A stretch of DNA of 64,000 nt, taken from NCBI GenBank assembly GCA_026005015.1, contig BPKG01000001.1, forward strand, positions 997,501 to 1,061,500, given 5' to 3'. The notes beneath the pieces were generated by a model that did no database searches, was not told the origin of the DNA, and saw only the letters and a list, made by a program, of their open reading frames with translations. The position numbers and the translations under genes are program-made. Of this stretch, positions 21,831-43,852 are shown piece after piece; within the stretch, counting starts at the first letter, position 1; every line of letters begins with the position of its first letter. Source of the stretch: Burkholderiales bacterium (GTDB lineage Bacteria; Pseudomonadota; Gammaproteobacteria; Burkholderiales; UBA6910).

Positions 21831-22226
21831 TCAGCGCCCGCTGCCCCAGCCGAACTGGTCGCAATAGAGCTTGAGCTTTTCCACGATCTCCTCCCGCTCG
21901 AAAAAGCGGTCGGCCCGGGCGAGGCGCGCCTGATCCCGGGTGGCCGGGTCTCCGCCGAAGCACAAGATCGGCACGTTGAGCATCATCTCCATGCGCACCC
22001 GCTCGATGACCGCCAGCGGGTCGAAGGCCTGAGCCTCGTCCAGGTCGAGCAGGATGAAGCGGTAGAGCAGCACGTCCTGGTAGCCGCCGAGCGCCTCCAG
22101 ATCAGTGCACTCGACCAGCGTCCACCCCGACGGCAGCGCGGCGCGCAGCTCGTCCAGCAACAGCGGGTCCGTGGTCATGACGATGAGCTTGCGCTCAAGG
22201 CGCGCTTTGACGGTGGGAATGGTCAT
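21831..22226 (-). CDS. degenerate response-regulator receiver-like protein
   Basis: A 131-residue protein whose predicted strand pattern resembles a CheY-type receiver: LIVMTTDPLLLDEL, then FILLDLDEAQAFDP, then NVPILCFGG. An Asp is present after the third strand (ILLDLD). The Thr/Ser of strand four and the Lys of strand five are not evident, so phosphorylation is uncertain. There is no output domain. The start ATG overlaps the stop of the lipoate-ligase-like gene by 4 bp. It is the last gene of the FadL module and may act as a protein-interaction domain. Confidence 0.6.
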   Translation of the reverse strand: MTIPTVKARLERKLIVMTTDPLLLDELRAALPSGWTLVECTDLEALGGYQDVLLYRFILLDLDEAQAFDPLAVIERVRMEMMLNVPILCFGGDPATRDQARLARADRFFEREEIVEKLKLYCDQFGWGSGR

Positions 22227-23218
22227 GGCACACCGGCAGCGGCTTCGACGATGAACCGGGACCAGCGGGCCGAGCGATCCGCAGACAGCGCCGCCAGGGC
22301 CCTCTGGAGAGTGCCCTGATCGACCGGCAGGCCGGGAGTCGCCTCCAGACACGATTGCACCTCGTCGTCCGAAGCGGCGATGCGCGCGATGCGCTTGCGG
22401 TCGATCACAAGCCGCACCCACTCCTCGCCCGCTCGGCGTTCGATGAGAAAACGGGCCGCGTTGAGCTTGAGGCCGTGCCGGACGGCGCGGCGCGGGGGGG
22501 TGTACCAGGGCTCCTCCACCTCCTCAAGCGCCGCTGCCCGGGCGCAGAGCTCTTCATCGGTCAGAGTGGCCGTCTTTAGATGCCAACCGAGGCGCCGCGC
22601 ACAAGCGCTGCGGAACGCTTCGAGCAACGCCTCTTCCGGCGGAGGCTCGCCTTCCCGCGCCCAGTCCGAGACAGCCTCGGTCAGTTCCTCCACCAGCCAG
22701 ACGCGGAACGCTTCGCTCGGCGAGGCAACACAGCGGCCGAAGCGCTCGGCGGGAAAGCGATACAGGAAGCTCGATCCGATCACCGCGGCTCGTCCGATGC
22801 TGGCCGAGCCGCTGCCGGCGATCTTGCGCCCGCGGCACCACAGGTCTTGCTCCACGCGCTCCACGGCGAGCCCGAAGGAAGCGTAAGTGTCCAGCGCCGG
22901 CGCCAGCGCCCAGTCGCCCCATTGCGCGGGCCGCCCCCGGAGCCGCGCCTGGGGCACTACGATGGCAAAGCAGTACTGGTCCGGATCGATCCACACGCAG
23001 CCGCCCCCCAGAGGCCGCCGCACCACCGGCACGTCCAGCTCGGCCGCCAGCTCAGCCTCGCGGGACTGGTGCTGGCCGATGCTGACATGCTCCGCGGCTT
23101 GACCCCAGACGATGGCAGGCGGATCGTCATCCTTCATGCACCTGGCGACCGCGGCATAAGTGGCGTGCAGGACCTCTCCTGTCACGAATCCCACGTTGAT
23201 CAGTCGCGCGCTCCTCAT
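22223..23218 (-). CDS. lipoate-protein ligase-like protein (second copy)
   Basis: A BPL/LplA-fold protein of 331 residues. The substrate loop is RRPLGGGCVWIDPDQYCFA, where most LplA proteins have a Ser or Thr before GGG. The catalytic-type lysine loop is GRKIAGSGSASIG. The C-terminal part (EPWYTPPRR to the end) resembles an LplB-type accessory domain. It differs clearly from the sLpl-type ligase at 28173-29258, so it may serve another lipoate-binding protein or transfer octanoate. It shares a strand and probably a transcript with the FadL gene. Start ATG 23218 (MRSARLINVGFV) is chosen because the longer upstream frame is not protein-like. Confidence 0.75.
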   Translation of the reverse strand: MRSARLINVGFVTGEVLHATYAAVARCMKDDDPPAIVWGQAAEHVSIGQHQSREAELAAELDVPVVRRPLGGGCVWIDPDQYCFAIVVPQARLRGRPAQWGDWALAPALDTYASFGLAVERVEQDLWCRGRKIAGSGSASIGRAAVIGSSFLYRFPAERFGRCVASPSEAFRVWLVEELTEAVSDWAREGEPPPEEALLEAFRSACARRLGWHLKTATLTDEELCARAAALEEVEEPWYTPPRRAVRHGLKLNAARFLIERRAGEEWVRLVIDRKRIARIAASDDEVQSCLEATPGLPVDQGTLQRALAALSADRSARWSRFIVEAAAGVP

Positions 23219-23420
23219 CCCGCGCCCATTTATCCTTCCATCTCCGACACAGAAGCATTCCCCTGCCTGTGCTCGCCCGCTCCCAAAGGGGGGGCGGTCG
23301 CCGCGGGGAGAGGACGGGCTTACCCATGGGCTTTGGGGCGGCGAGGTGGTATCACGCGCCGGCGCCGCGGCTTGGCAGCAATCCAACGCCAAAACACGAG
23401 CCCGACGCTTGGCGGGACGC

Positions 23421-23843
23421 CTACTGTTGCTCGCCCGCTGAGCCTTCGGGACAGGTTTTGAAAAAGCAAGCAAAATAGAAGTCGCGCTGCTCCAACGCTT
23501 GCAAAGCCTTGACCCGCGCCTCCATGCCCTCGCGAAAGATGTCCGCCAAGTGACGCCCCTGCTCGCCATCGAGCACGTGGATCTGCCCCAGGAACGGATG
23601 CCCGTTCTGATCCACCTCGTCTAAGGTGAGCACCCGAGCGGTCAACTCATCGGGCGGCGGCAGATACAGGAGATACGCTTCACAGTCGGGATCCTCCGGG
23701 TCCAGCGGGCACAGGACGATGCGGCCCAGCCAGGCGAGCCGCGCTGCCTGGTTGAAGTGCACGATGTCGAGCTTTTTTCCCTTGCGGTACTTATTGAGCT
23801 CGTTCTTGAGCCGGCTGATGTCGGTGAGGTTGATCTGTTTCAT
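23421..23843 (-). CDS. hypothetical protein of 140 residues in the FadL module
   Basis: I do not recognise this family. It has no signal peptide or membrane segment, so it should be cytoplasmic. The N-terminus MKQINLTDISRLKNELNKYRKGKKLDIVHF is charged, the middle is rich in hydrophobic strands (GRIVLCPLDPEDPDCEAYLL), and two cysteines near the end lie in FACFFKTCP. It sits 35 bp after the SCP2-like gene and 200 bp before the ligase-like gene, all on one strand. That placement suggests a part in sulfur or lipoate handling, which is inference only. Confidence 0.7.
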   Translation of the reverse strand: MKQINLTDISRLKNELNKYRKGKKLDIVHFNQAARLAWLGRIVLCPLDPEDPDCEAYLLYLPPPDELTARVLTLDEVDQNGHPFLGQIHVLDGEQGRHLADIFREGMEARVKALQALEQRDFYFACFFKTCPEGSAGEQQ

Positions 23844-23877
23844 GTCGCCCGCGGGATCGCTCGCAGGTACTCCCATT

Positions 23878-24393
23878 CTACCGCGCGGGGCAGGAGGCGG
23901 CATCGCCCGGCACCTTGCCCACCAGGAGCAAGAAGCTCTCGAAGGGCCCCATGTTGCCCATCGCCTCGAAGCGGGGCCCCTCGAACTGCAAGCGGTTGAA
24001 GAACATGGCGCGCATCGGGCCGTATTCGCCGCGGCCCATCTCCTGCCAGCGCTTCGTCTCCGCCCACATCAGGTAGTCCGCCGACGAATCGAGCTTGGAC
24101 TCGGCTGCGCCGCCGTAGACGCACCGCGCGCTGCCGTCCTGCTCGCTCACCCGCAACTCGATGCGGAGGCTGTCCGGGCAGTCCTGGCGGTAGAGTTGCA
24201 TGACCTTATAGCCACGGCCGGCATGATTCTTGACCCATCCCGATTCGACCAATTGCCGGGTGAGCACGGGGTCGGCATTCCACGCGGCGCACAGGGCCCG
24301 GGCCCATTCAGTTGACATCAAAACCGGCGCCGGCCACGCCGCCGGCGCAGTCGCCAGAACAAGCGCCACACTGAGCCCCACCTTCCTGGCCAT
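23878..24393 (-). CDS. secreted SCP2-like lipid-binding protein
   Basis: A 171-residue protein with a signal peptide (about residues 1-22, ending near AWPAP). It starts after GGAGGAGAG. The mature part follows the SCP2 sterol-carrier pattern: MSTEWARALCAAWNADPVL, a central beta region, then ADYLMWAETKRWQEMGRGEYGPMRAMFFNRLQFEGP, ending in GPFESFLLLVGKV. SCP2 folds bind hydrophobic ligands. It lies 106 bp after the FadL gene, so a periplasmic carrier for a ligand taken up by the channel is plausible but unproven. Confidence 0.75.
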   Translation of the reverse strand: MARKVGLSVALVLATAPAAWPAPVLMSTEWARALCAAWNADPVLTRQLVESGWVKNHAGRGYKVMQLYRQDCPDSLRIELRVSEQDGSARCVYGGAAESKLDSSADYLMWAETKRWQEMGRGEYGPMRAMFFNRLQFEGPRFEAMGNMGPFESFLLLVGKVPGDAASCPAR

Positions 24394-24499
24394 CTCTCCT
24401 CCTTTATCGAATTGAAGCGCCCCGACCCTCCTTCCCGGGGGCCCGAGCCTCGGCGCCCGCGCCCCCCTGGAAGCCGAGGCGGAAGCGCACGCAAGCCGC

Positions 24500-25837
24500 T
24501 CACATCCTCCAGCTATAGGCGACCCCGATCGAGTTCTGATACATCTTGATGGTCTCGGTCGTGGTCGGCGGTGCGCCGAAGTTGGTGAAGAACGACTGGG
24601 CCGTGACGCCGGTGTTGAAGGCATGCATATAGAAGAATGTCCATTCGCCGCCCGTCGGTGTCACGTACGTCGCCCCCAGGGTCACGTGGTCCCGGATCAC
24701 CCCGGGCGCCAGGATGTTGATGGTAACGTCCTGGGCCCGGATCGGGTTGTCGCTGCGGTTGTAGCCGGCGCGCAGGGTCCAGCGCTGGTTGTACTGGTAC
24801 TCCACGCCCAGCTTGAACACGTTGACGTCCTGCCAACCGAAGCCTGCTCCGTTCGAGCCGCCCAGGCAGTTGGAGAGATTCCCCCCGGCGCAGCCGAGCA
24901 ACAGGCCGCTGGGGTTGCCGACCGATTTCACGTCGCTGTAGTTGATGCGCTGGTAGTCAAAAGCGATGGCCAGCTTCGGGGTGGCTTGCCAGGCGATGCC
25001 CACGTTGTAATTCTCGGGGATGTCGAAATCGCCCTGCTCAGCGAAGAGGCCCTTATACTTGTCGAACTCGTCCATGTAGATCTTGGTCGCGTAGGCGGCG
25101 CCCACCGAGAGGCCTGGTGCGAGCCTGCCGAAGTAGCCCACGCGCACCCCCGCGCCGACGGAGGTCTCGTGCCCGCGGTTGGTGAAGTTGGCGGGATCGG
25201 TGGAAAAGCCGGCGAACGCCTGGAGCCCCTTCGCCGCGAAGCGCTGGCCGGCGAGGAGAGGCGCCACGCCGATGGAATGATCGGGGTGGAACTTGTAGGC
25301 CAAGGTGGGGGCGATGATCACCTGGGCGAGATCGACGCCCAGGCGCCCGTCGCCGCACAGCAGGTTGTAGCTGGGCTTGCCCGGGTTGAACGCGGCGCAG
25401 GCGCTCGCCGCCGGAATCTGGCCGCCGGGATAATCGGTGTTCATGCCGCCGTTTCCATACACGGTCACGCCCAGCGCGAGATTGGGGGTAAGCATCCAGT
25501 TCACCCCGAACTCGGGAATCAAGAAAAACTTCCGGTCGCTTTCCGCGGTTCCGTCGATGCCCGCCACTCCGCTGCCGAAGCGGCTAGACTCCCGGATCGG
25601 GCTGAAGACCATGGCACCGATGCCGACGTCGAGGCGGTTGCCGAGAAAGGCCATGCTGGCGGGATTGTTGGCGCCGCCGAAGGCATCGACGGCCCGGGCC
25701 GTCGCCGCGCCCCCCATGCCCTTGTTCTTCATGCCGTAGCCTTCCTGGAAATAGCCGTCGGTGGCGAGGGCGGCGCCGGACAAGCAGGCGCAGCCCAGGG
25801 TGAACGCCGTGGCCAGGGTTTTCCTCTGTCTCCTCAT
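24500..25837 (-). CDS. FadL/OmpP1-type outer-membrane transport protein
   Basis: A 445-residue outer-membrane beta barrel for hydrophobic molecules. It has a signal peptide ending near GAALA. The mature N-terminus carries the FadL-type hatch motif DGYFQEGYGMKNKGMGGAATARAVDAFGGANNPASMAF. Alternating strands end in the aromatic terminus NSIGVAYSWRM. The start follows AGGAGG. The promoter contains a near-perfect copy of the operator also found before shdr and sox genes. In this setting the substrate could be a hydrophobic sulfur compound rather than a fatty acid; that is inference. Confidence 0.9.
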   Translation of the reverse strand: MRRQRKTLATAFTLGCACLSGAALATDGYFQEGYGMKNKGMGGAATARAVDAFGGANNPASMAFLGNRLDVGIGAMVFSPIRESSRFGSGVAGIDGTAESDRKFFLIPEFGVNWMLTPNLALGVTVYGNGGMNTDYPGGQIPAASACAAFNPGKPSYNLLCGDGRLGVDLAQVIIAPTLAYKFHPDHSIGVAPLLAGQRFAAKGLQAFAGFSTDPANFTNRGHETSVGAGVRVGYFGRLAPGLSVGAAYATKIYMDEFDKYKGLFAEQGDFDIPENYNVGIAWQATPKLAIAFDYQRINYSDVKSVGNPSGLLLGCAGGNLSNCLGGSNGAGFGWQDVNVFKLGVEYQYNQRWTLRAGYNRSDNPIRAQDVTINILAPGVIRDHVTLGATYVTPTGGEWTFFYMHAFNTGVTAQSFFTNFGAPPTTTETIKMYQNSIGVAYSWRM

Positions 25838-25906
25838 TGTTGTCCTCCTGAAAGTGGGCTCGAACGAGCCGTTTTTCCACGAACATCCTAGGGTTATTTT
25901 TATTAA

Positions 25907-25935
25907 ATTTCAATATTATTCATTGCTAATGTCAA
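25907..25935 (-). promoter_or_regulatory. sigma70-type promoter of the FadL gene
   Basis: On the minus strand TTGACA (25930-25935) and TGAAAT (25907-25912) are separated by 17 bp. The spacer is almost entirely the operator-like repeat at 25915-25930. Confidence 0.65.
25915..25930. promoter_or_regulatory. sulfur-regulon operator copy 4 (before fadL)
   Basis: ATTATTCATTGCTAAT fits ATTAG-N6-CTAAT with one mismatch in one half-site. It lies between the -35 and -10 elements, where a bound repressor would block RNA polymerase. Confidence 0.65.
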
Positions 25936-25967: not shown

Positions 25968-27098
25968 TTATTCACTAGGTGCCCGGTCCTCGCCCCGCAT
26001 CTGGCGCCGGACGATGGCCACGTCCCGGCGATTCAGGGCGAAAGGGAAGGAGCGGATATCGGTCGGGCTAGAATCGCCGTAGGGGCGGTTGCAGGCGGAG
26101 ACTTCCTCGTCGTCCTTGCCCGGGCAACCGGAGGTGCGGAAGGGCTTGCCGGAGCGGATCAGCAGCTCCAGCTCGTCTTCGGGAAGCCCGAAGTCAACGA
26201 CCCGCCCCGCCTCGTCGAACTGCATGTCGTCGATGCGCCCGCCGGCGTAATCGATGATGAACCGGGCAAGCTGCACCCGGCGCCACTGGGCCCGGTCCAC
26301 CGGCGGCCAGTCTTCCATGAGGGAGCCCCGCTCCGGGAAGAAAGCGAACATGTGGTTGTGCCCCCCCATGTCCTTGATCCGCTGCGCCACGGTGAGGATC
26401 TCCCGCTCGGTCTCGCCCAGGCCGCAGATGAGATGGGCGCCGAATTTCTCGGGGCCGAACACCTCGGCGGCCCACTCGATGGCCTGCCAGTACTTTTCCC
26501 ACTTGTGGGGACTGTCTACCCCCTTGCCCCGGGTGCGGTCGAAGATGGCTGGCGTGACTGCGTCCAGGGCCACGGTGAAGATGTCCGCGCCCATGGCCTT
26601 TAGGCGCTTCAAGTCCTCCTTCTCCATGGTGGTGGGATTGGAAAGGATGGACACCGGAATGTGCTGGATTTCCCGCACCCATTTCTCCAGGAGGGCGAAG
26701 GTGTCCTGGTCCGAATTCGGGTGGGTGATCATGGAAATGCACATGCGCTGAAACTGCCCCCGGTCTTCCGCGGCCTTCACCCGCTCGATCACTTCGTCGT
26801 AGCGCACCGTGGGCCAGTCCACGCGGATGAAATTCCGGTCGGCGTAGTCTCGGGCCTCCTCCCGGTGCCGGGCGAGCCCGCAATAAGCGCAATTGGCCCG
26901 GCAGCCTTCCGGATAGGTCACCAGCAGGTTGAGACAGTGGGTGCAGGCGGTGCGGTACATCCGCCCGGGGACGAGCCCCAGGGTGATGGCCGCGGCGGTG
27001 CTCATCTGCACGTACTCCGGCGAACGCATCTGGGGGGTTTTGATGTGGTAGTTGGGGCGGTAGAAGCGGATCGGCTGGGCTTCCGGCACGGCGTTCAT
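25968..27098 (-). CDS. lipS2: radical SAM sulfur-insertion enzyme LipS2 type
   Basis: One of two radical SAM proteins that together build lipoate on a bound octanoyl group in the LipS1/LipS2 route. The 376 residues contain the SAM-cluster motif CRANCAYC near residue 74, preceded by further Cys in CTHCLNL. A second C-terminal cysteine region (SGCPGKDDEEVSACNRP) could bind an auxiliary cluster. Its place after lipT and near sLpl supports the assignment. Which of the two radical SAM genes is LipS1 and which LipS2 is taken from gene order and is not certain. Confidence 0.8.
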   Translation of the reverse strand: MNAVPEAQPIRFYRPNYHIKTPQMRSPEYVQMSTAAAITLGLVPGRMYRTACTHCLNLLVTYPEGCRANCAYCGLARHREEARDYADRNFIRVDWPTVRYDEVIERVKAAEDRGQFQRMCISMITHPNSDQDTFALLEKWVREIQHIPVSILSNPTTMEKEDLKRLKAMGADIFTVALDAVTPAIFDRTRGKGVDSPHKWEKYWQAIEWAAEVFGPEKFGAHLICGLGETEREILTVAQRIKDMGGHNHMFAFFPERGSLMEDWPPVDRAQWRRVQLARFIIDYAGGRIDDMQFDEAGRVVDFGLPEDELELLIRSGKPFRTSGCPGKDDEEVSACNRPYGDSSPTDIRSFPFALNRRDVAIVRRQMRGEDRAPSE

Positions 27099-27110: not shown

Positions 27111-28172
27111 TCAAGCGAAATACTCTGCAAACGCGATCCAGCCGCGACGGTGGAACGCGTCGGTCCGGGCGCTGGGCGTCCGCCACCCGGCGCTCATCGC
27201 CCGCCGCCGGCGCACCGCCCGCGCCACCGAGTCTTCGAACTGATCCCGCACGTCCTCTTCGAAATCGGCCAGCGCCCGGGCTCGGCCCGCGAGGACCTCC
27301 GCCGCCGCTTGTCCCGCGCGCTCCCCCGAGATCACCGCGGCGGGTATGCCCGCGCCGGTGATGGGGTGAGTGAGGCCCGCGGCGTCGCCCGCGAACAGTA
27401 CCGGACCGTGGACCAGCGCCGGGCGCAAGCCCCCCACGGGAATCGCGCCGCCCGTACGGGACGCGATTTCGCGGCCCACCCGGCCTTCTTCCTGCAGCCG
27501 GCGATGGAGCGCTTCCAGGGGCCCTTTCAAGTCGGGGGCGAAGGCCCGGTCCAGGCCCAATCCCAGGTTGGCCCAGGGCCCCTTGGGGAAAAGCCATGCG
27601 TAGCCGCCTGGATAGTCACTCGAGAGCCAGACCTCGGTGACGGCGCTGGGCCGAGTGAGGGGCACCGTGTACTGCCGAGTCTCCACGCATTCCAGGGACG
27701 ATAATCCCAAAGCCTGGGCCACCCGGGAACGGGGCCCGTCCGCAGCCACCAGGAGCTTGAACTCCACCTCCAGCGGCCCATCGGGCCCCTCCGCCCATGC
27801 CCGCCGCCGGGACAGGTCGATGCCTGCAAGGCACGTGCCCGTCTCCACTTGGGCGCCCGCCGCTGCGGCCGCCCGGACGAAGGCCTGGTCGAAGGCCGCC
27901 CGGTCCACCATCAAGCCGGGGAATGGGGTGCGCTCCCCATGCCCCGAGGGCAGCCGGCTTTCCATGGCTTCGATCCGCTGCAAGAGCACCCCGGGGTCCC
28001 GGGTCCAGCGGCCGAGGGGCAATGGCACGAATTCCGCGCACTGCACCGGCAGGCCCACCACCCGCTTGCGCTCCAGGGCGATCACTCGGAGCCCCCGGCG
28101 CGCCGCCGTCCACGCGGCTGCGCCTCCTGCAGGGCCCAAACCGACCACCAGGAGATCGCAGCGCCGGACCAT
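27111..28172 (-). CDS. lipT: FAD-dependent oxidoreductase LipT (geranylgeranyl-reductase-like)
   Basis: A 353-residue flavoprotein. The FAD-binding start is CDLLVVGLGPAGGAAAWTAARRGLRVIALERK, and a second FAD motif is VLFAGDAAGLTHPITGAGI near residue 255. The family is related to geranylgeranyl reductases. In sHdr-type gene clusters a homologue named LipT accompanies lipS1, lipS2 and sLpl and is thought to supply electrons for lipoate assembly. The gene begins directly after the sLpl stop and ends 12 bp before lipS2, so the set is one operon. Confidence 0.82.
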   Translation of the reverse strand: MVRRCDLLVVGLGPAGGAAAWTAARRGLRVIALERKRVVGLPVQCAEFVPLPLGRWTRDPGVLLQRIEAMESRLPSGHGERTPFPGLMVDRAAFDQAFVRAAAAAGAQVETGTCLAGIDLSRRRAWAEGPDGPLEVEFKLLVAADGPRSRVAQALGLSSLECVETRQYTVPLTRPSAVTEVWLSSDYPGGYAWLFPKGPWANLGLGLDRAFAPDLKGPLEALHRRLQEEGRVGREIASRTGGAIPVGGLRPALVHGPVLFAGDAAGLTHPITGAGIPAAVISGERAGQAAAEVLAGRARALADFEEDVRDQFEDSVARAVRRRRAMSAGWRTPSARTDAFHRRGWIAFAEYFA

Positions 28173-29258
28173 TCAGGAGGGCTCCTCCTGGGAGGAGGGG
28201 TATCGGGACGCGAGCGCTTTGCGCACCACTTGGGCAAAATCGGCGGGCTTCAGCATGAGCAGGTCCACGGACCGCCCAGCGAAAAAAGCCTCCACGCGCT
28301 CTTCCAGGCGCTCGAGGGGCGCATCTTTCAGGTGGGCTTCCAGGTCCATCACCGCCCGCCGCGGCCGCACGAAAAAATCTCCGGTGAACCAGACCTGCCT
28401 GACCCGCTCGCCCGCGGCGTCATAGAGGACGGCGGCGCGCACCAATCCCCCGGGGAACTTCGCTGCCGCCTCCAGCAGGGGCTGCTCCGTTCTGGGGCGG
28501 GTGAGCAGGTGCACCCAGTCGGGATGATCCATTTCCGCCAAGGCCTGACGATAGCGGGCCTCCTCCGGCGGCGTGAGCCCCGAGGGGACGAAATCCACGC
28601 CGAAGGCCCGGGAGAACGCCTCGGCGAGACGGGCCTTGATGTCCGCAAGGGGCGGCGCAGTGCCCAGCAGCTCGGCGAGGCTCGTCACCCGTTCCCGGGC
28701 GGAACCGATCGCCTTGTCCGAGAGCTTGTCCGCGGGGATGCGCAGCACCCGCAGCATGCGCTCCACGTCGAACTGGATCAGCAGGGTCCCCTGGTACATG
28801 AGCGCCTCCCCATCGAAAGCGCCGCCCGTGCCGGAGATCTTGCGCCCGCCCACCTCGATGTCGTTACGCGGCCGGTACCGGGCATCGACGCCGAGAGCGC
28901 GGATCCCCTCCGCCGCCGCTTCGCAGATGCGTCGGGCGATGGCAGCCATGTCCGCCGCTCCCAGCTCCCGCCGGGAGAGGTAGAGTTCCCAGCCGAGCTG
29001 GCCTGGGTCCATGTAGATGGCGCCTCCGCCGGTGATGCGCCGTTGCACGGCGATGCCCTCGGCGGCGCAGCGCTCCAGGTCGAGCTCCTGCTCGGCGCTC
29101 TGGTGGTAACCGAGCAGCGCTGACGGGAGAAACTGGAGAAACCGCAGCGTGGGCGGCGCCTCACCCGCCTGGCGCGCCTCCAGCAGGGCCCGGTTGAGGG
29201 CCATGTTCTCCGCCGCCCGGCGAATCCCCGTATCGAGCAAGCGCCAGCGTGCGGTCAC
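28173..29258 (-). CDS. sulfur-oxidation lipoate-protein ligase sLpl(AB)
   Basis: Attaches lipoate or octanoate to the lipoate-binding protein of the sHdr system. The 361 residues start at a GTG after a G-rich ribosome site. The LplA-type loop is VQRRITGGGAIYMDPGQLGWELY and the lysine loop is GGRKISGTGGAFDGEAL. The C-terminal third (RTEQPLLEAAAKFPGG to LMLKPADFAQVV) is the LplB-like accessory domain, so both parts are fused. It lies 10 bp after lipS1 and abuts lipT. A longer upstream frame to 29321 overlaps lipS1 and looks untranslated. Confidence 0.88.
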   Translation of the reverse strand: MTARWRLLDTGIRRAAENMALNRALLEARQAGEAPPTLRFLQFLPSALLGYHQSAEQELDLERCAAEGIAVQRRITGGGAIYMDPGQLGWELYLSRRELGAADMAAIARRICEAAAEGIRALGVDARYRPRNDIEVGGRKISGTGGAFDGEALMYQGTLLIQFDVERMLRVLRIPADKLSDKAIGSARERVTSLAELLGTAPPLADIKARLAEAFSRAFGVDFVPSGLTPPEEARYRQALAEMDHPDWVHLLTRPRTEQPLLEAAAKFPGGLVRAAVLYDAAGERVRQVWFTGDFFVRPRRAVMDLEAHLKDAPLERLEERVEAFFAGRSVDLLMLKPADFAQVVRKALASRYPSSQEEPS

Positions 29259-29268
29259 GGTCCCCCCT

Positions 29269-30426
29269 TCAGCCCGGCGATCCCGACACCACGACCCGGA
29301 TTCCGGCGAGCCCGCCGGCACCGGCCGGGGGTCGGCTGCGCCGTCGTTCCTCTTCGATCACGCGATCGAGGTCGATCGTGAGACCCTCGCTGTCGCCCTC
29401 CAGGGCAAGCACTTCGTCCCCCACCGCGATGGAGCAGCAGGCGGGCGTCACCCGCACGTCCCGCCCCAGGCGCGCCGCCAGCTCCACCATGCCGTCCGCA
29501 GGATGAGCGATGCCGTTCAGCCCCGCCAGCACCGCGTAGGCGTCGATCTCGGTCTTAGCCCGGCCCGCTGGGCGGGCGCAGCCCAGGAGGATCGGCGTGT
29601 CGGGCAGGGCCTCCCGGGCGTCCATGAAAAAGGCCCCCACCTCCTTCGGGTCCGTCGTGGCGAAGGGGCGGTGCGCCGGCGCGTAAAAGGGCATCACCAC
29701 CACCAGCACCAGCGCATCTGGCGGATGGCGCTTGAGCATCTCCAGGGCGTTCCACTCCCCCAGGAGCCGACCGTAGTGCAGGCCAATCACGATATGGGGC
29801 ACCACCTTGAGGGAAGTCTCGGTAAGGTACGCCAGGGAGGCCTCGAAGTCCTCCACGCCGCGGCGCAGGTGGTAGACCTGGCGGATGGTGTCCTGGGCGC
29901 CGATCACGTCCATCATGGCGGCGTCGATTCCGGAGTCTTCCATGCGCCGGGCAATGTCCCGGTCCACCAGCGCCGTGTGCAGCGCGATCTTGAACCCGGG
30001 GAAGGCGTCCTTGATGCGCCGGATCACGGGGTAAAAAGGCCCGTACTCCACCTCGTTGCGGTGGTTGGAGCCGCCGGTGAGGAGCATCCCCCGGGCGCCC
30101 GCGGCGATCTGCTCGTTCACCACTTGCCACAGGGCTTCGGGCGTCCTGGCAGGGATCATGGGCTCCAAGATCTTGGCCTTGCAGTGGTCGCAGGCGAGCT
30201 TGCATTCGGGCCCGGTGATGGACACGGCGGGCCAGGCGCTCTTGCCGCAACCGGCGATCTCGGAGGTGGCGTAGGCCTTGAACGTGGGGGTATAGAAATT
30301 GATCCCGTCTATGCGCTCGCCGCTGAGCCTGCCGTAGCGGGAGGCCATGCCATCGACCAGCCGGGGATCCAGCTCCAGGTCCTCCAGCGCCTCCACGCGC
30401 TCAACGATGCTCAACCAGTCGGACAT
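29269..30426 (-). CDS. lipS1: radical SAM sulfur-insertion enzyme LipS1 type
   Basis: Partner of LipS2 in lipoate assembly. The 385 residues contain the SAM-cluster motif CKLACDHC near residue 74, followed by glycine-rich LLTGGSNHRNEVEYGPF. Cysteines in LGCARPAGRAKTE and TPACCSIAVG near the C-terminus may hold an auxiliary cluster that donates sulfur. The gene follows lbpA directly (46 bp). The LipS1 name rests on gene order and could be swapped with the gene at 25968-27098. Confidence 0.8.
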   Translation of the reverse strand: MSDWLSIVERVEALEDLELDPRLVDGMASRYGRLSGERIDGINFYTPTFKAYATSEIAGCGKSAWPAVSITGPECKLACDHCKAKILEPMIPARTPEALWQVVNEQIAAGARGMLLTGGSNHRNEVEYGPFYPVIRRIKDAFPGFKIALHTALVDRDIARRMEDSGIDAAMMDVIGAQDTIRQVYHLRRGVEDFEASLAYLTETSLKVVPHIVIGLHYGRLLGEWNALEMLKRHPPDALVLVVVMPFYAPAHRPFATTDPKEVGAFFMDAREALPDTPILLGCARPAGRAKTEIDAYAVLAGLNGIAHPADGMVELAARLGRDVRVTPACCSIAVGDEVLALEGDSEGLTIDLDRVIEEERRRSRPPAGAGGLAGIRVVVSGSPG

Positions 30427-30472: not shown

Positions 30473-30913
30473 TCAAGCGCAACCGCCGAAACCGTCGGCC
30501 TGCATCTTGGCCTCGAAGGCCTGGGCGGCGGCCGCCCCCGTCTGGAGGTTCGCCGATTCCGCATCCCACTGGCTCGGCTTCATCTTGACCAGCCAGCCGG
30601 CGCCGTAGGGATCCGCGTTGATGGTGCCCGGCTTCGCCTGCACCGCGTCGTTGACGGCGATCACCTCGCCCGAGACCGGCGCCTTGACCGGACCGACCCA
30701 CTTGCCGGACTCCACGGTGCACACGGACTTGTTGAGTTCGACGTTTTTTCCCACCTTCTTTGGCGTATACGAGACGATCTCCCCCGCCAGCGCACAGGCG
30801 TAGCTGGTCAAGCCGACGGTGACGGTGCCGTCCGCCTCCCGGCGCGCCCACACGTTGTTCTCCACGTTGTAGTACAAGTCGTCAGGAAAGTTGCAGCCTC
30901 GCACGGTCGCCAT
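30473..30913 (-). CDS. lbpA: lipoate-binding protein LbpA
   Basis: A GcvH-like carrier dedicated to sulfur oxidation. The 146 residues hold the lipoyl hairpin with the modified lysine in CTVESGKWVGPVKAPVSGEV (about residues 66-85). The N-terminus CNFPDDLYYNVENNVWARREADGTVTVGLTSYACALAGEI is typical of LbpA. Its lipoyl arm is thought to carry sulfur intermediates for the sHdr complex, replacing thiol disulfides. It lies between a DsrE-family gene and lipS1. Confidence 0.93.
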   Translation of the reverse strand: MATVRGCNFPDDLYYNVENNVWARREADGTVTVGLTSYACALAGEIVSYTPKKVGKNVELNKSVCTVESGKWVGPVKAPVSGEVIAVNDAVQAKPGTINADPYGAGWLVKMKPSQWDAESANLQTGAAAAQAFEAKMQADGFGGCA

Positions 30914-30936
30914 GTCGGTTCCCCTTTATTTGTCGT

Positions 30937-31332
30937 TCAGAAAAACATGGTCTTGTCGCAGCCGAGGATCAGGTCCGCCAGGGCCCCCGCAGGAGAGATT
31001 TCGTCCACCTCGTCGATCACCTCTTCCACCTCCAGCTCGTAGCCCGGCATCGCCGGCTTGCACAGGTGGAGCCTGACGCCCGCCGCCTTCGCCTCGCGCA
31101 TGAACTCGATGATTTTCTTACCGCCTTTCATGGCGGTCAAATTCTCCGGCACACCCTTCTGGGCGAGCAGCACCCCCTCCATGGTGAGGAAGATGCGCAC
31201 GTCCGCGTCCATAGAGGCGAGGAGGGCCCCGATGTAGAACGGCGTGGCGCAGCGGTGGGGCGTGCTGGGGCCGCTGGTCATCACGATGACCACCCGCTGC
31301 TCCCCGTGATCCAGGTAATGGGACTCGGCCAT
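30937..31332 (-). CDS. DsrE-family sulfurtransferase-like protein
   Basis: A 131-residue cytoplasmic protein of the DsrE/F-like fold: VVIVMTSGPSTPHRCATPFYIGALLASMDADVRIFLTMEG, and RLHLCKPAMPGYE with the likely reactive cysteine near residue 90. The start ATG overlaps the stop of the preceding lipoate-binding gene by one base. It is different from the DsrE protein at 37750-38262. A role in passing sulfane sulfur to or from the lipoyl carriers is inferred from its place between two of them. Confidence 0.85.
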   Translation of the reverse strand: MAESHYLDHGEQRVVIVMTSGPSTPHRCATPFYIGALLASMDADVRIFLTMEGVLLAQKGVPENLTAMKGGKKIIEFMREAKAAGVRLHLCKPAMPGYELEVEEVIDEVDEISPAGALADLILGCDKTMFF

Positions 31333-31778
31333 CAGGACGAGGGCCTTTCGCAGCGGATGTCCTCGCGCCGGGCCCGGGCGCAGTAGCCCGTGCGGGCCGC
31401 CTCGCCGGTCACCAGGCCTTCGAGGGCTTTCTCCAGATCGCCAGCGGGCCGCACCCGGGCGATCCAGGCGTCGAAGGGAGCACGATTGAGCAGCGCCGGA
31501 TCGTCCAGCACTTCGGGGTTGGCCGCTTCGATGGTGCAATCGAAGGGATTGGGCACGGGCCCCGCCCACTTACCGCTTTCGATGGTGGCCACGGGCTTGC
31601 CGGCGGGCCGCAGCGTCCCCGGGCGGCGCACCCGCACGTGCAGGATCCGGCCGGCAATGGTTTGGGAGAGGTCGGTCATGCCCACGGACACCGTCCCGTC
31701 GTTCTCCACGCGGACCCAGATCTGGTACTCCCCATCGTAATACAGCTCGGGTCGAAACTCGCAGCCATTGCACTCCAT
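31332..31778 (-). CDS. second, divergent lipoate-binding protein (LbpA-like)
   Basis: A 148-residue GcvH-like protein. The lipoyl lysine is retained in VATIESGKWAGPVPNPFDCTI, and the N-terminus CNGCEFRPELYYDGEYQIWVRVENDGTVSVGMTDLSQTIAGRI parallels LbpA. It differs strongly from the LbpA at 30473-30913, with two N-terminal cysteines (CNGC) and a cysteine-bearing C-terminal tail. It follows shdrB2 by 87 bp and precedes the DsrE gene. Two such carriers in one cluster are known from some sulfur oxidisers, and they may act at different steps. Confidence 0.85.
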   Translation of the reverse strand: MECNGCEFRPELYYDGEYQIWVRVENDGTVSVGMTDLSQTIAGRILHVRVRRPGTLRPAGKPVATIESGKWAGPVPNPFDCTIEAANPEVLDDPALLNRAPFDAWIARVRPAGDLEKALEGLVTGEAARTGYCARARREDIRCERPSS

Positions 31779-31865
31779 GGCGGTCAGCTTACACGAGCCT
31801 CCAGCGCAAGGCACGCGTGCCGGCCGTGCAGGGGCGCCTACCGCCGACCATCCATCACCGGAAGC

Positions 31866-32780
31866 TCAGATGATCCCTTTTTCGTGCAGGAAATCCAGCG
31901 AGTCGCTCACGTTCTCGTGAATCCCGAGCTTTCTCGCCGACAATCCCATGGCCAGGCCCAGGAGCTGGGTGAAATAGAGGATCTTCACGCTGGTCTTGAT
32001 CCCGAACTGGGTCTCGGCGCGCACCTGGTGCATCTCCAGCCCGGAATGGCAGGTGGGGCATTCGGTGGCGATGACCTCGGCCCCCGCTTCTTCGGCCGCC
32101 TGCAGCAGGTTGAGCACCAGTTGGGTGGAGGTGTCCGCGTCGGACAGGGTATGGGCGCCGCCGCAACAGGCGGTCTTCAGAGGGAAGTCCACGTTCACCG
32201 CTCCGGCCGCCGCCAGCAGATCGTCCATGAAGTGGGGCTTATGGGTGGACTCGGAGCCCGGCCCCCGGTCCTTCTCCGGAAAGATCTGCCGCGGGCGCGT
32301 GTACATGCAGCCGTAGTAGTTGGCCACCCTGATGCCGTTCAGGCTCTTCTTGAGGCGCGCCTTGATGCCCTCCGGGCCCAGCTCCTCCATGAGCCATTCC
32401 AGCAAGTGGAGGGTGCGCACGTCCCCCTTGTACACCGGATCGTCGGCCTGCCGCGCCAGATCCTGCACGGTCTTGAGGGCTTCCTCGGAGGTGGCCAGCT
32501 CGTATTCGGCTTTCTTCAGGTTGTGATAGCAGCCGTTGCAGGGCGCCATCACGGTATCGAACCCCATCTTCACGCCGGCGATGGCCAGGTTGCGCGCCGA
32601 CATGTAGGTCTGGAGCATGGGATGGACGTTCTTCACCTCCATGGCCCCGCAGCAGTTCCAGTCCTCCAGATCGTGCATCTCCAGCTCCAGCGCCTTCACC
32701 AGCGCCCGGGTGGAGCGGTCGTAGGGACCGCCGGAGCCTTCTAGCGCGCAGCCGGGGTAATACGCCACTTTGGACATCAT
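31866..32780 (-). CDS. shdrB2: sulfur-oxidising heterodisulfide reductase-like subunit sHdrB2
   Basis: A 304-residue protein of two CCG domains expected to bind noncubane iron-sulfur clusters. The cysteine groups are GCALEGSG..NCCGAMEV, APCNGCYHN, GCMYTRP, TACCGGAHT and ATECPTCHSG. In the sHdr complex the B subunits hold the catalytic sulfur site. It follows shdrC2 by 12 bp. The complex oxidises protein-bound sulfane sulfur in the cytoplasm, with sulfite as a likely product. Confidence 0.93.
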   Translation of the reverse strand: MMSKVAYYPGCALEGSGGPYDRSTRALVKALELEMHDLEDWNCCGAMEVKNVHPMLQTYMSARNLAIAGVKMGFDTVMAPCNGCYHNLKKAEYELATSEEALKTVQDLARQADDPVYKGDVRTLHLLEWLMEELGPEGIKARLKKSLNGIRVANYYGCMYTRPRQIFPEKDRGPGSESTHKPHFMDDLLAAAGAVNVDFPLKTACCGGAHTLSDADTSTQLVLNLLQAAEEAGAEVIATECPTCHSGLEMHQVRAETQFGIKTSVKILYFTQLLGLAMGLSARKLGIHENVSDSLDFLHEKGII

Positions 32781-32792
32781 TGACTCCTCACG

Positions 32793-33563
32793 TCAACCAT
32801 GGGCGATGCGCTTCTGCTCCTCCACGTACCGGCGCAGGATCTCGCCGGTGCGACCCCACGACCGGGTGCGCGGCTTGAACACCAGGTTCCACGCCATGTG
32901 CATAGGCATGAGGATGGGCACGCGGGCGAGGAAGCGGCCGATACGCCCCTTCTTGAGCTCGGTCCACTTGTTCATGCGGGCGACGAAGATCCCCAGCCAG
33001 CCCCGGGTGGCGAGCTGCCAGAGGTTCTGGCGGGTCTGCTTGAAAAAGTTGAGCAGCACCTCGGAATCCTCGATCCGCCCCCGCTCCAGGCACTGGCGGG
33101 TGAACTCCTCGTCGAACAGGGTGGAGGGGGCCTTGGGCACGTAGCCCTGGTCTTCCATCCAGTGCTGGATGGCCTTCATCACCCCTTCCGGCCGCACGTC
33201 CTTCGGGCAGATGTTGGTGCACTTGTTGCACGACACGCACTGCCAGATGATGTCCTTGTCCTTGAGCAGCTCGTCCTTGAGGCCCAGGCGGACCAGGTAG
33301 ATCCAGTAGCGGGGGTTAAAGTCGATGTTGATGGCGTACATGGTGCAGGAATTGGTGCAGGACCCGCACTGCCAGCAGCGATGCACGTTTTCGCCGCCCC
33401 CGTACGCCTGGATGGTCTTCTCGAAGTCCTCGTCGTAGTCGGTGAGGGTGCGCGGCAGGATCATGGTGTTCCAGTGCCCGGAAACGTCCACCCCGTCCAC
33501 CACCAGCTTATCCGCCTGGAGCACCTGCTCCGGCGCGAGCAACGTCTTCTCGTGTATCGGCAT
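32793..33563 (-). CDS. shdrC2: sulfur-oxidising heterodisulfide reductase-like subunit sHdrC2
   Basis: A 256-residue ferredoxin-type electron-transfer subunit with two [4Fe-4S] motifs, CWQCGSCTNSC near residue 63 and CVSCNKCTNICP near residue 108. The C-terminal half contains a basic amphipathic stretch (KKGRIGRFLARVPIL). It lies between the hypothetical protein and shdrB2 in the usual C1-B1-A-hyp-C2-B2 order. Confidence 0.93.
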   Translation of the reverse strand: MPIHEKTLLAPEQVLQADKLVVDGVDVSGHWNTMILPRTLTDYDEDFEKTIQAYGGGENVHRCWQCGSCTNSCTMYAINIDFNPRYWIYLVRLGLKDELLKDKDIIWQCVSCNKCTNICPKDVRPEGVMKAIQHWMEDQGYVPKAPSTLFDEEFTRQCLERGRIEDSEVLLNFFKQTRQNLWQLATRGWLGIFVARMNKWTELKKGRIGRFLARVPILMPMHMAWNLVFKPRTRSWGRTGEILRRYVEEQKRIAHG

Positions 33564-33583
33564 GGGTTTGCCTGCTCCTCGCT

Positions 33584-34456
33584 TCAGCTCCGCTGGCCGG
33601 TTGCGGCCTTTTTCACCCGCGTCCGGCCGTCGAGGCAGTCGATGCCCAGCAGCTTCTTCAACTGCTCCCCCGGCTGGGCGCCACGGCCGAAATCGCCCCC
33701 CAGGTTGCCCTCCGCCACCGAGCGTAGGTAGGTCACATAGGCCTGGGCCAGCACCAGGTCGATCCAGAAATGCACGTCCCGGAACACGCCCTGTTCGGCA
33801 ATCCGGGCCTTGAGCCAGACGCGGGCGCCTTCGAACGTCTCGGGGCTGGCGTCGAGGGCTAAGCCCCCCGAGGCGTCGCGCTCCCGGACGAACTCCCGCA
33901 GCGCGCCACTGCGGGTGGCCGGGTCCCAGACCCAGCGGCTCATGAGGGGATAGCGCACCGGGTCGAGGAAGTGAAGCAGCTCGGCGGCGAAGTCAAAGGC
34001 CGCGCGCCGGGCTTTGGCGGCGAGCCGGGCGTCTCCGGTAACGCCCTGGGCCGCCGCCACGAGTTCCGCAGCGAAACGCTCCATCCGCTCCCGCACCCCT
34101 CCTGGGCCCTCCAGCAACGCCTGCAGCGCCCCGCGCAGCCACGCCTCCCCGGCCGCGGCGAGCAGGGGATGGATCCGCCTGCGGGCGGTGAACACCGCGC
34201 CCAGGAGCCGCTCGGCGTCGGGGAACGCCACGGCCGCATGACGCCCCTCGCCCAAGAGCTCGGCGAAGAGCCGCCGCTTGGCGTCGAGGCGCTCTAGGCA
34301 GACCTCGATCCCGCCGCTCGCCTCCAGGCTCACCTGCAGGGCGGCCAGGTGGTGGAGAAACAGCCGTTCGTCCAGAGCGACCGGCAGCTCGGCGGGAACG
34401 ATCAAATCACGCTCGGGCGCCGGCGGCTCATGCCGCTGCTTTGTGAACCAGAGCAT
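33584..34456 (-). CDS. conserved hypothetical protein of the shdr cluster
   Basis: A 290-residue soluble protein, mainly helical and rich in Leu, Ala and Arg, with no cofactor motif that I can see. A protein of unknown function at this exact place, between shdrA and shdrC2, is a standing part of shdr clusters. It overlaps the shdrA end by 29 bp, so translation is coupled. The only visible feature of note is a Trp-rich middle (YPLMSRWVWDP). Confidence 0.85.
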   Translation of the reverse strand: MLWFTKQRHEPPAPERDLIVPAELPVALDERLFLHHLAALQVSLEASGGIEVCLERLDAKRRLFAELLGEGRHAAVAFPDAERLLGAVFTARRRIHPLLAAAGEAWLRGALQALLEGPGGVRERMERFAAELVAAAQGVTGDARLAAKARRAAFDFAAELLHFLDPVRYPLMSRWVWDPATRSGALREFVRERDASGGLALDASPETFEGARVWLKARIAEQGVFRDVHFWIDLVLAQAYVTYLRSVAEGNLGGDFGRGAQPGEQLKKLLGIDCLDGRTRVKKAATGQRS

Positions 34457-35483
34457 TCAGGTCTCCGACCGCCCTCATGGCCATCGCTAGGCCGTGGGAG
34501 ACGCAGGTGTCGATGTCTTCGGGCCCGAGGGCGGCGCCCCCCACGTAGACGCCACGGCGGGTGCTGCTGAAGGAGCTGGTGTAGTGCTCGCCGCGCTCCA
34601 GGAAGCCGTGCTTCTCCAGTCCCACCCCGAACACCCGGGCGATCTCCGGGTTGTCCAGGTTCGGGTCCATGCCGATGGCGTGGACCACCAGATCCATGGG
34701 AATCACGATGGGGCGCTTGACCAGGGTGTCCTCCCCTTTCACCAGGAGCCGCCCGTCGGGCCCCTGGGTGACCTCGGCAATGCGGGCCTTCACGAACTTG
34801 GTCTTAAACTCCTCCTGGGATTTCCAGTAGTACTTGTCCTCGTACAGCCCGAAGGTGCGGATGTCCATGTAGTAGATAAAGACATCCGTCTTGGGAGAGA
34901 TCTCCTTGATCTCTATCGCCAGGTTGGCGGAGACGGTGCAACAGATCTTGGAGCACCACTCCCGCCCGATCTGTCGGTCGCGGGAACCCACGCACAGCAG
35001 GATCGCCACCCGCTCCGGCACCCGCCCGTCGGACGGACAATAGATCTTGCCGGCGGCCACCATCTGTTCCACCTGGGTGGTGGTCACCACGTCCTCGAAG
35101 GTGCCGAAGCCCCACTCGGGCTTGTTGATGGAGTCGAAATGGGTGAAGCCGGTGCCGAGGAGGATGGCACCGCACTTGACCGTCTGGCCGTTGGACAGCG
35201 TCGCCGTGAAGTCGCCGTGGCTGCCCTCCACCTTCGTCACCCTGGCGCTTTTGTGCACGGTAATCAGCGGGTTCTCCACCACCCGCTTGACCATGCGGCC
35301 GATGGCGTCCTTGGCCCATTCCCCGGAAGGGACCAGCTTGGCGTAGCCGGAGAGGATCGGCGCGCCTCCCAGAATGTTCTCCTTCTCCACCAGCACGACC
35401 CGCTGGCCCGCCGAAGCCACCGCCGCCGCCGCCGACAACCCGGTGGGGCCCGCCCCCACCACCAGCACAGTTTTTTCCGTCAT
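34428..35483 (-). CDS. shdrA: sulfur-oxidising heterodisulfide reductase-like subunit sHdrA
   Basis: The flavin subunit of the complex, 351 residues. The FAD-binding loop is VLVVGAGPTGLSAAAAVASAG at the N-terminus. The HdrA-type cysteine region is CVGSRDRQIGREWCSKICC near residue 170. The C-terminal FAD contact is RGVYVGGAALGPEDI. It lacks the extra ferredoxin and thioredoxin-reductase parts of methanogen HdrA, as is usual in sHdr. The ATG overlaps the shdrB1 stop by 4 bp; a longer upstream frame is not used. Confidence 0.93.
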   Translation of the reverse strand: MTEKTVLVVGAGPTGLSAAAAVASAGQRVVLVEKENILGGAPILSGYAKLVPSGEWAKDAIGRMVKRVVENPLITVHKSARVTKVEGSHGDFTATLSNGQTVKCGAILLGTGFTHFDSINKPEWGFGTFEDVVTTTQVEQMVAAGKIYCPSDGRVPERVAILLCVGSRDRQIGREWCSKICCTVSANLAIEIKEISPKTDVFIYYMDIRTFGLYEDKYYWKSQEEFKTKFVKARIAEVTQGPDGRLLVKGEDTLVKRPIVIPMDLVVHAIGMDPNLDNPEIARVFGVGLEKHGFLERGEHYTSSFSSTRRGVYVGGAALGPEDIDTCVSHGLAMAMRAVGDLNALVHKAAA

Positions 35484-36829
35484 GCCGCCATGCTCCCAGC
35501 GAGTTTCGGGTCGTAGAGGTGCTCGATCCGGCCGGCCTTGACCTCCTGGAGATAGGCCTCGAAATTCTTCTTCGCCTCGGTCCAGGAGATGCCCATTTTC
35601 TCCACCAGCTCCTCGCACGGGCTCGCGTGCCACTGGAGCTGCACGATCTTGAAGGGGTCCGCCCCGCAGGCGAGCGCCGCGAACTGGATGTCGGCCATCA
35701 CCGGGATCTGGAAGTTCTGGCCGTGGGCGCGCCCGATCCACTGGTTCTTGTCCATGGTGGTGATGCAGCCCGTGTCGTTGCCGATCATCACGTCCGCCTT
35801 GGCCTCCTCCACCGCCACCCGGATCTTACGGTCCATGGTGAAGGAGCGGGTGAACTCCCGCTCGGAAATGATATGGCGGAAGCCGAAGCCGCAGCAGTCG
35901 TACCAGGTGGAGTAATCGATCACCTGGGCGCCGAGGGCCTGGGCGATGGAGGTGCCCACCGCGGTGCGGTTGCCGCCGAGCACCGTCGGGTCGTAGATCG
36001 CGTCCTCGTGCACCATCTTGTAGTAGTGACAGGCGGCGTGCATGACCACGCGGATATGCGAGACGTCGATCTTCTGCAGCTCGGAGGCGATGCGGTTGCG
36101 CATCACGTGCACCCATTCCGAGTAGTGGACGATCTCCTCCGGGATCACGAGCTTGCCGTCCACCAGCCGCCCGAGCTTGGCGAGGATCTTTTTCACCCGC
36201 TCCCGCAGCTCGGCGGATTCGAGCAGGTACTTGCGGATCTCCTTGTAGTTGCCGAAGGAGGTCCCGCAGTGGACAAGCGGATAAAAGTGGCCGGCGCCGT
36301 AGCCGTGCTGCTTGCCGGAGACGTAGGCCTGGTGGAAGTTTCGCAGGAACACGGCGGCGAGCGACTCCACGTTGCCGATGCCCGAGCCGTGGTAGTTCCA
36401 GGCGGTGCAGGAGGTCTGGTCGGTCTCGTCCAGGTAGTCCCGGCCGGGGACGAAGCCGAGCCGGTTCATGGTCCAGAGCAAGGACGTTGGGTAGCCCGGG
36501 ATGTTGCCGCACTGGCCGCAGGACTTGTGGTGCCAGAGCTGCACCGTGGGGATCTTCTTGGTCCAGCCGAAGAGCGTCTGCACCTCCACCGGCCGGTGGG
36601 CGTCGGTCACGCGGTGAACGATGATCTCGCCGTCCTTCTCCAGCTCCCACAGGTGCTCGCGCACGTCTTCCATGCGCTCGCCCAGGTCGATGGTGCGCCG
36701 GTCCACGTGCTTGCGCACCCACTCGGTGGCCTTTTCGGCCTCCTCCTTGGACAGGTTGGTCGGCTGGAAAAACGAGCCGTGGCCGGCGATGCCGCTGCCG
36801 TCGGAGGGAAGGGAAAACGGGTTGCTCAT
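35480..36829 (-). CDS. shdrB1: sulfur-oxidising heterodisulfide reductase-like subunit sHdrB1
   Basis: A 449-residue subunit with two CCG-type regions. The cysteine groups are HKSCGQCGNIPGYP near residue 103, CTAWNYHG near 143, HAACHYYK and WYDCCGFGFRH. These should bind noncubane clusters. It is longer than sHdrB2 because of an N-terminal extension of about 90 residues. It lies 30 bp after shdrC1. Confidence 0.92.
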   Translation of the reverse strand: MSNPFSLPSDGSGIAGHGSFFQPTNLSKEEAEKATEWVRKHVDRRTIDLGERMEDVREHLWELEKDGEIIVHRVTDAHRPVEVQTLFGWTKKIPTVQLWHHKSCGQCGNIPGYPTSLLWTMNRLGFVPGRDYLDETDQTSCTAWNYHGSGIGNVESLAAVFLRNFHQAYVSGKQHGYGAGHFYPLVHCGTSFGNYKEIRKYLLESAELRERVKKILAKLGRLVDGKLVIPEEIVHYSEWVHVMRNRIASELQKIDVSHIRVVMHAACHYYKMVHEDAIYDPTVLGGNRTAVGTSIAQALGAQVIDYSTWYDCCGFGFRHIISEREFTRSFTMDRKIRVAVEEAKADVMIGNDTGCITTMDKNQWIGRAHGQNFQIPVMADIQFAALACGADPFKIVQLQWHASPCEELVEKMGISWTEAKKNFEAYLQEVKAGRIEHLYDPKLAGSMAA

Positions 36830-36859
36830 GGTCGCATCTCCTTTAAGGTGTGCGGCGGC

Positions 36860-38262: not shown

Positions 38263-38316
38263 CGAATCCTCCTCCCGCCCGGCCCGTCGAGTCCGGTGGT
38301 GTGCGCCGGCAATCGG

Positions 38317-38544: not shown

Positions 38545-38611
38545 GGTGTCTCCTTCCGGATGATCGAACAACAGGTGCAATCTCCTCGAACGCGCGCCGG
38601 ATCCACCGGGC

Positions 38612-39977: not shown

Positions 39978-40063
39978 GGATTCGATTTCTTACCTATCGG
40001 AGGCGCCCCGGCCCGCCAGCTCATGGCGCCGGCGGAATCGGACGAAGGCGCAGGGCTCGGGTC

Positions 40064-40795: not shown

Positions 40796-40808
40796 GAAAA
40801 ATGCTCCT

Positions 40809-43706: not shown

Positions 43707-43852
43707 GGAGCAATCGAGGTGGCTCGAGGCCTTGGCAGAAAGGGCGCTATTGTGCAAAACAAAATCGTTCTCAGCAAAAGAATTGTTTTTATGGGCCTTC
43801 CCCTCCTCCTTTATGGGGAAAATCGATTGAGGTGGCGGGCCTGCCGTGATAA

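Follow-up and report, generated by a model that had tools for sequence, protein, structure and literature searches.

A sulfur-associated FadL-type channel gene and a conserved three-gene set adjoin the sHdr/lipoate cluster of a Burkholderiales bacterium

A 64,000-nucleotide stretch of Burkholderiales bacterium DNA (GenBank assembly GCA_026005015.1, contig BPKG01000001.1, positions 997,501 to 1,061,500 of the forward strand; hereafter the window) carries an sHdr sulfur oxidation cluster followed by its lipoate-assembly (lip) genes; the present analysis concerns the five genes that lie beyond lipS2, the last of these. They encode a FadL-type outer-membrane channel, a secreted SCP2-fold protein, a 140-residue protein (here u140), a second lipoate-protein ligase-like enzyme and a receiver-like protein. 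All five open reading frames (ORFs) were confirmed, in this order and co-oriented on the minus strand, and the same layout was found again in congeneric and same-family genomes (coordinates in Table 1). A preliminary description of the locus had reported this arrangement together with a regulon operator before fadL, both of which the ORFs and the motif shuffles given below bear out. The spacing is tight between scp2 and u140 (34 bp) and between the ligase and receiver genes (a 4-bp overlap); one transcript for the five genes is nevertheless only putative, because three gaps are loose (fadL–scp2, 106 bp; u140–ligase, 202 bp; lipS2–fadL, 130 bp, with the operator inside).

The operator-like palindrome, ATTAG-N6-CTAAT, occurs at six sites in the window when up to one mismatch is allowed (three exact, three with one mismatch), against a mean of 0.15 and a maximum of three sites in shuffled windows; six were attained in 0 of 100 shuffles. 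Sites lie upstream of shdrC1 (37594), rhd (38955), the SoeA/PhsA-like operon (43853), fadL and soxYZB, with two one-mismatch copies in the region upstream of soxY (47706-47721 and 47773-47788). The distribution of the sites supports a tie of fadL to the sox/soe/shdr regulon. A common regulator would presumably act through them: in Hyphomicrobium the sulfane-responsive ArsR repressors SoxR and sHdrR act on such regions (PMC10451225, PMC12423496). Outside the window, a one-mismatch operator lies in the lipS2–fadL gap of G001 (L024:13815); in the distant genome G417, where lipS2 is followed by two fadL genes, an exact copy lies at the same place, ahead of the first (L191:12951). ATTAG-N6-CTAAT is not a universal feature, since several other genomes lack such a site.

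The channel belongs to the OmpP1/FadL/TodX family (PF03349, 86.2 bits; cut-off 29.7) and falls outside the canonical FadL equivalog (NF007988, 23.1 bits; cut-off 585). A phylogenetic tree separates the sulfur-associated FadLs, with 100/100 support, from both E. coli FadL and the canonical FadL that the window's genome also encodes; the program warned of long branches at this split. By its family the protein is a putative transporter of a hydrophobic compound.

The genomic company of this clade is more specific. The relatives compared are draft genomes, with genes called crudely (six-frame translation plus a choice by GC content at third codon positions, GC3), and apparent gene absences in them may be contig ends; where lip or shdr genes are said to be missing beside fadL, this refers to the fetched stretch and not to the whole genome. 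FadL relatives follow lipS2, or lie next to u140 or its neighbours, in about 34 of the 42 genomes with an sHdr system containing both LbpA1 and LbpA2 (the two-LbpA form), a count that takes in divergent members recognised by context only. FadL matches at E<=1e-20 were present in 32 of the 53 genomes with sHdr and in 3 of the 26 that lack sHdrB1 (p=3e-5), whilst DsrE2/3A was present in 14 of 15 FadL-positive against 7 of 29 FadL-negative genomes (44 genomes tested, p=1.4e-5); among the sHdr genomes tested, FadL occurred in 7/9 of those having DsrE2/3A and in 0/4 of the others (p=0.02), G002 being counted here although its sHdr core was not observed. These p-values overstate independence, since relatedness links the genomes and FadL similarity guided the choice of loci.

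Linkage to sulfur genes persists in stretches free of both shdr and lip genes: fadL lies beside dsrE2/3A at L020 and L181, with tusA-dsrE2/3A and soe at L022, with soe genes at L021, and as a tandem pair after rhd-tusA-dsrE2/3A at L278 (G046). In the single-LbpA clusters L182 and L184, fadL and tusA-dsrE2/3A share one strand and the lip genes run divergently on the other. The preliminary description had proposed co-occurrence with shdr, as opposed to fatty-acid genes, as a test and had linked the channel to sulfur; for fadL both points are supported, since it lies by shdr, lip genes or the u140 group in most two-LbpA genomes, its clade tracks DsrE2/3A even where shdr is missing, and its operator is common to sox, soe and shdr. 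Tandem fadL copies adjoining shdr or rhd-tusA-dsrE2/3A were also seen at L028, L191, L192 and L206, in addition to L278. A separate observation concerns two genomes with lbpA2, lipoate-assembly genes and rhd-tusA-dsrE2/3A but no adjoining sHdr core (L026 in G002, 2341-11605, where dsrE2/3A directly continues into dsrE-lbpA2; L277 in G052, 4402-10580). Neither G002 (85% complete) nor G052 gave a close sHdrB1 match, and it would be unusual for a lipoylated LbpA to occur without sHdr.

The protein encoded after fadL begins with an apparent signal peptide (MARKVGLSVALVLATAPAAWPA), as do most of the relatives fetched, judged by eye. It matches the SCP2 family (PF02036, 22.3 bits; cut-off 21.3), and its AlphaFold (AF2) model, with a predicted local distance difference test score (pLDDT) of 89, was matched by Foldseek to SCP2 folds at E 2.2e-6, with template modelling (TM) scores to the target of 0.51-0.60 for the top three; profile and fold match place it in the SCP2 superfamily. 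C35, C72, C91 and C168 are invariant in 18 aligned sequences. The secreted partner of hydrophobic-ligand type envisaged in the preliminary description thus finds support in the signal peptide and the fold match, and the protein is a putative carrier of a lipid or other hydrophobic ligand.

The identity of this partner varies amongst the relatives. It is SCP2-like in the window's own family; genus g37 has scp2, though not near shdr, and the scp2–fadL pair was found again in G407, which has no close sHdrB1 but has DsrC, DsrH and DsrMK-like ORFs (identified by eye). In about 19 other genomes a secreted protein of about 300 residues, without a Pfam family, is encoded after fadL or before u140; in G052 and at L019, where no shdr cluster adjoins, its gene likewise comes after fadL. 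This protein is unrelated to SCP2 and often fills the slot in the many sHdr genomes from which scp2 is missing, which speaks against a single module of five genes.

The remaining three genes (hereafter the triplet) behave differently from the fadL pair. No Pfam or NCBIfam family matches u140, although 33 columns are invariant in an alignment of 21 sequences. Its AF2 model has a pLDDT of 81 and found no match in a fold search against the PDB (best E 0.5); a PDB profile search gave a weak match to Gloeobacter proteins and CpcN (E 1.8e-5, about 60 residues), and no u140 was found on plasmids. Among the 399 genomes of the order, 25 have sHdrB1 at >=82% identity, and these same 25, and no others, carry u140. 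Within the class (274 genomes) it is present in 16/16 with close sHdrB1 and absent from one with sHdrB1 at 70%; across the phylum it is present in G670 and absent from G672, G719 and G894. Counted by sHdr form, and irrespective of linkage, u140 is found in 42/42 two-LbpA sHdr genomes, against 0/11 single-LbpA genomes and 0/367 genomes of the order without close sHdrB1.

Gene order agrees with this count. Genomes positive for u140 have lbpA1-dsrE-lbpA2 wherever that stretch was seen (some contigs or fetched stretches, for example those of G588, G036, G101 and G299, do not reach lbpA), whereas u140-negative sHdr genomes show lbpA2 only. We considered whether the latter clusters are type II and rejected this, as C2 and B2 are present in the clusters that were seen, which are therefore type I with a single lbpA. 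In G037, G050, G160, G417 and others the triplet is distant from shdr and the association still holds, so plain clustering does not explain it. Two full-length copies of sHdrB1 were found in each of G285 (C15), G369 (C5 and C13), G417 (C1) and G569 (C5 and C6), which probably hold two sHdr clusters.

The second ligase matches the LplA/B catalytic domain (PF21948, 66.4 bits) with the RR-x2-GGG loop and lysine in place; within its family R66, G69-71, D123 and K130 are invariant, and the loop, here RRPLGGG, is kept along with the lysine. It scores 39.2 bits against the LplA equivalog TIGR00545, below the cut-off of 280, and its nearest solved structure is Thermoplasma LplA (E 2.7e-20). The receiver-like protein has no Pfam or NCBIfam match and, in a PDB profile search, only a weak match (E 2e-4) to a response regulator. 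D20 and D61 are invariant in it, but no conserved lysine lies at the expected place, and we therefore do not class it as a true receiver domain. Both proteins usually accompany u140; in the stretch from G670, u140 is the only member of the triplet seen. Near the receiver gene in other families of the class lie two more small conserved proteins without Pfam matches, of about 105 and about 135 residues (L197:11483-11797 and 11996-12427; also at L188, L189, L192-L195, L199-L204 and L209), which were not found in the window.

By sequence all three triplet proteins are cytoplasmic, none showing a signal peptide, and at L029, L032, L204 and L208 they occur together without adjoining fadL or scp2. 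The preliminary description had read the five genes as one uptake module; as the parts separate across genomes, and the triplet follows two-LbpA sHdr rather than the envelope pair, we reject this reading.

The genes upstream complete the picture of the locus. The sHdr core has the six syntenic genes, with C2 and B2 unfused, that define type I sHdr (PMC11582611). LipS2 is the best NCBIfam match of the last lipoate-assembly gene, although its score lies below the cut-off of 270. The interval from the Soe-like operon to soxYZB encodes a protein of about 100 residues without an assigned family (43883-44191) and a Ser/Thr kinase-like protein with an apparent C-terminal cyclic-nucleotide-binding domain (44363-46237).

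Table 1. Features of the fadL–triplet region and its surroundings; positions are those of the window unless a locus is named.
Feature	Position	Strand	Basis or remark
fadL, FadL/TodX-type outer-membrane channel, 445 residues, sulfur-associated clade	24500..25837	-	PF03349 and tree
Secreted SCP2-fold protein, 171 residues, apparent signal peptide	23878..24393	-	PF02036 and AlphaFold/Foldseek
u140, 140-residue cytoplasmic family, marker of two-LbpA sHdr form	23421..23843	-	conservation and co-occurrence
Second lipoate/octanoate-protein ligase-like enzyme, 331 residues	22223..23218	-	PF21948
Degenerate receiver-like protein, 131 residues	21831..22226	-	PDB profile match
Operator-like palindrome ATTAG-N6-CTAAT, 1 mismatch, lipS2–fadL gap	25915..25930	none	
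lipS2, final gene of lipoate-assembly set	25968..27098	-	NCBIfam LipS2, 205 bits
lipS1, sLpl(AB), lipT (in transcription order)	27111..30426	-	context
lbpA1, dsrE, lbpA2, two-LbpA arrangement	30473..31814	-	both LbpA GcvH-like; order conserved
shdrC1, B1, A, H, C2, B2, type I sHdr core	31866..37543	-	context
rhd, tusA, dsrE2/3A sulfur relay	37750..38944	-	DsrE2: NF047629, 252.8 bits, above cut-off
SoeABC/PhsA-like molybdoenzyme operon	39015..43757		upstream of sHdr cluster
soxYZ and soxB	47843-50509		TIGR04488, TIGR04490, TIGR04486, each above cut-off
Secreted family of about 300 residues, members	L205:3211-4098, L191:16033-16932, L196:3940-4860, L179:10737-11648, L019:11221-12183, others		

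We judge the chances to be about even that the 3′ end of the sHdr/lipoate cluster holds two modules, an envelope pair for sulfur uptake and a cytoplasmic accessory set for sHdr. In the first, fadL and the gene of its secreted partner would serve sulfur oxidation at the outer envelope, and the common operator would couple their expression to that of sox, soe and shdr. The FadL-type β-barrel may pass a poorly water-soluble compound through the outer membrane to a soluble periplasmic protein (of SCP2 fold here, the unrelated protein of about 300 residues in most relatives), which would receive it and hand it on. The most likely cargo would be hydrophobic zero-valent sulfur (S8, long polysulfanes or an organic sulfane), which would enter the Rhd-TusA-DsrE2/3A relay and pass from it to sHdr-LbpA; from gene company and regulation we infer this cargo, its hand-over and the direction of transport. 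In the second module u140, the LplA-like ligase and the degenerate receiver would serve sHdr systems with LbpA1 and LbpA2, most likely aiding assembly or lipoylation of these two proteins; the ligase would use free octanoate or lipoate, as sLpl(AB) does. Such an accessory or maturation role is our best guess in view of the triplet's strict company and the conserved ligase active site. The stronger statement, that FadL and its secreted carrier, SCP2-like or of the other type, form a dedicated S8/polysulfane uptake route of both sHdr and rDsr oxidizers, co-regulated with sox, soe and shdr, and that the triplet is an unrecognised two-LbpA accessory set, is put forward only tentatively; taken whole, we think it less likely to be right than wrong.

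Several results weigh against this account. FadL was not found in the two-LbpA genomes G050, G092, G093, G504 and G670, so it is not essential, and scp2 is absent from many sHdr genomes. Cysteines in the FadL family vary from 0 to 6 per protein and are not conserved; no conserved thiol is therefore available for opening S8, and thiol-based S8 activation at FadL is unsupported. The module contains no inner-membrane transporter, and no inner-membrane sulfur importer was identified. In G504, G588 and G604 u140 and the receiver remain where the ligase was not seen, so the ligase is not obligatory.

The main competitor for the cargo is free octanoate or lipoate, or other fatty acids, which the FadL pair could import for sLpl(AB), FadL then being LipY. 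This enzyme takes only free precursors, using free octanoate or lipoate and having no octanoyltransferase activity (PMC10332631, PMC6067878), and for the same lipoate systems the former paper calls lipY a 'putative fatty acid transporter'. The usual position of fadL directly after lipS2 fits such a role, as do the retention of fadL and lip genes without an adjoining sHdr core in G002 and G052, which also counts against the sulfur reading, and the capacity of SCP2 folds to bind fatty acids (1pz4, a C16 complex, is among the Foldseek matches). When lip genes and the sulfur relay separate, however, FadL stays with the relay, and for this reason we favour sulfur as cargo: lip genes occur without a detected sulfur-clade FadL in G050, G092, G057, G061 and G348, FadL accompanies the relay or soe at the five lip-free loci listed above, and in the single-LbpA clusters it goes with tusA-dsrE2/3A and not with the lip genes. 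The tandem FadLs at L028, L191, L192 and L206 would also be better suited to a bulk substrate than to a cofactor precursor. An autotroph must make its own octanoate, and octanoate is, to our knowledge, not a classical FadL substrate. Import of a lipoate precursor appears rather unlikely to us.

We find it still less probable that FadL and its partners have a general role in the envelope or in lipid handling (traffic of fatty acids, hydrocarbons or lipids, or membrane adaptation) and were carried along by clustering. The FadL family has diverse hydrophobic substrates, and the FadL relative at L023 (38% identity) adjoins an apparent acyl-CoA dehydrogenase in a genome that gave no DsrE2/3A; FadL induction in Acidithiobacillus thiooxidans has moreover been read as membrane adaptation to acid (PMC10487802). 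The operator, the recurrent association with sulfur genes in different families and the distinctness of the clade from canonical FadL all argue the other way. For the triplet, the alternative is sulfur-responsive sensing, in which the receiver and u140 would gate sHdr or LbpA by contact and the ligase would report lipoyl status. The invariance of D20 and D61 in the degenerate receiver speaks for it, as does the persistence of u140 and the receiver at L194, L195 and L201, where the ligase was not seen; the triplet contains neither a kinase nor an output domain, however, and its ligase retains the catalytic lysine and glycine loop, so we regard signalling as rather unlikely and prefer the accessory role in LbpA maturation.

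The entry of insoluble elemental sulfur into Gram-negative oxidizers is an open question, for which a conserved, co-regulated channel and partner offer a concrete deletion target; the triplet likewise points to missing parts of a major sulfur-oxidation pathway, possibly including a second LbpA ligase. A literature search for FadL with elemental sulfur returned nothing direct, and the triplet is apparently undescribed.

Amongst known systems, the closest to the channel gene is lipY, likewise a transporter gene in the sLpl(AB)-LipS1/S2 arrangement of sHdr oxidizers (Tanabe et al. 2023, PMC10332631). The FadL described here is likely that LipY, and the FadL-like neighbour may already have been published under this name; the passages on LipY mention no sulfur role, operator, partner protein or DsrE2/3A link. 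In family and size the protein agrees with the FadL/TodX/TbuX family (PF03349); it differs in forming a clade distinct from E. coli FadL and from the canonical FadL in its own genome, and in sitting in a sulfur regulon rather than with fad genes. Its partner shares the fold and Pfam match of SCP2 (PF02036) but has an apparent signal peptide and four invariant cysteines and is encoded next to FadL. The second ligase has the catalytic domain family, active-site loop and lysine of the sLpl(AB) of sHdr clusters (PMC6067878), with about 24% identity to it, but belongs to another family, one that usually occurs together with u140 and the receiver, and the genome has its own sLpl(AB) besides. According to the SoxT paper (PMC11582611), sulfur import itself is poorly understood and has been demonstrated by experiment only for SoxT1A, which is not a general importer. 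SoxT1A too has been proposed to import sulfur for the cytoplasmic sHdr pathway, but SoxT is an inner-membrane protein of YeeE type, whereas FadL would act at the outer membrane, so that the two would be complementary.

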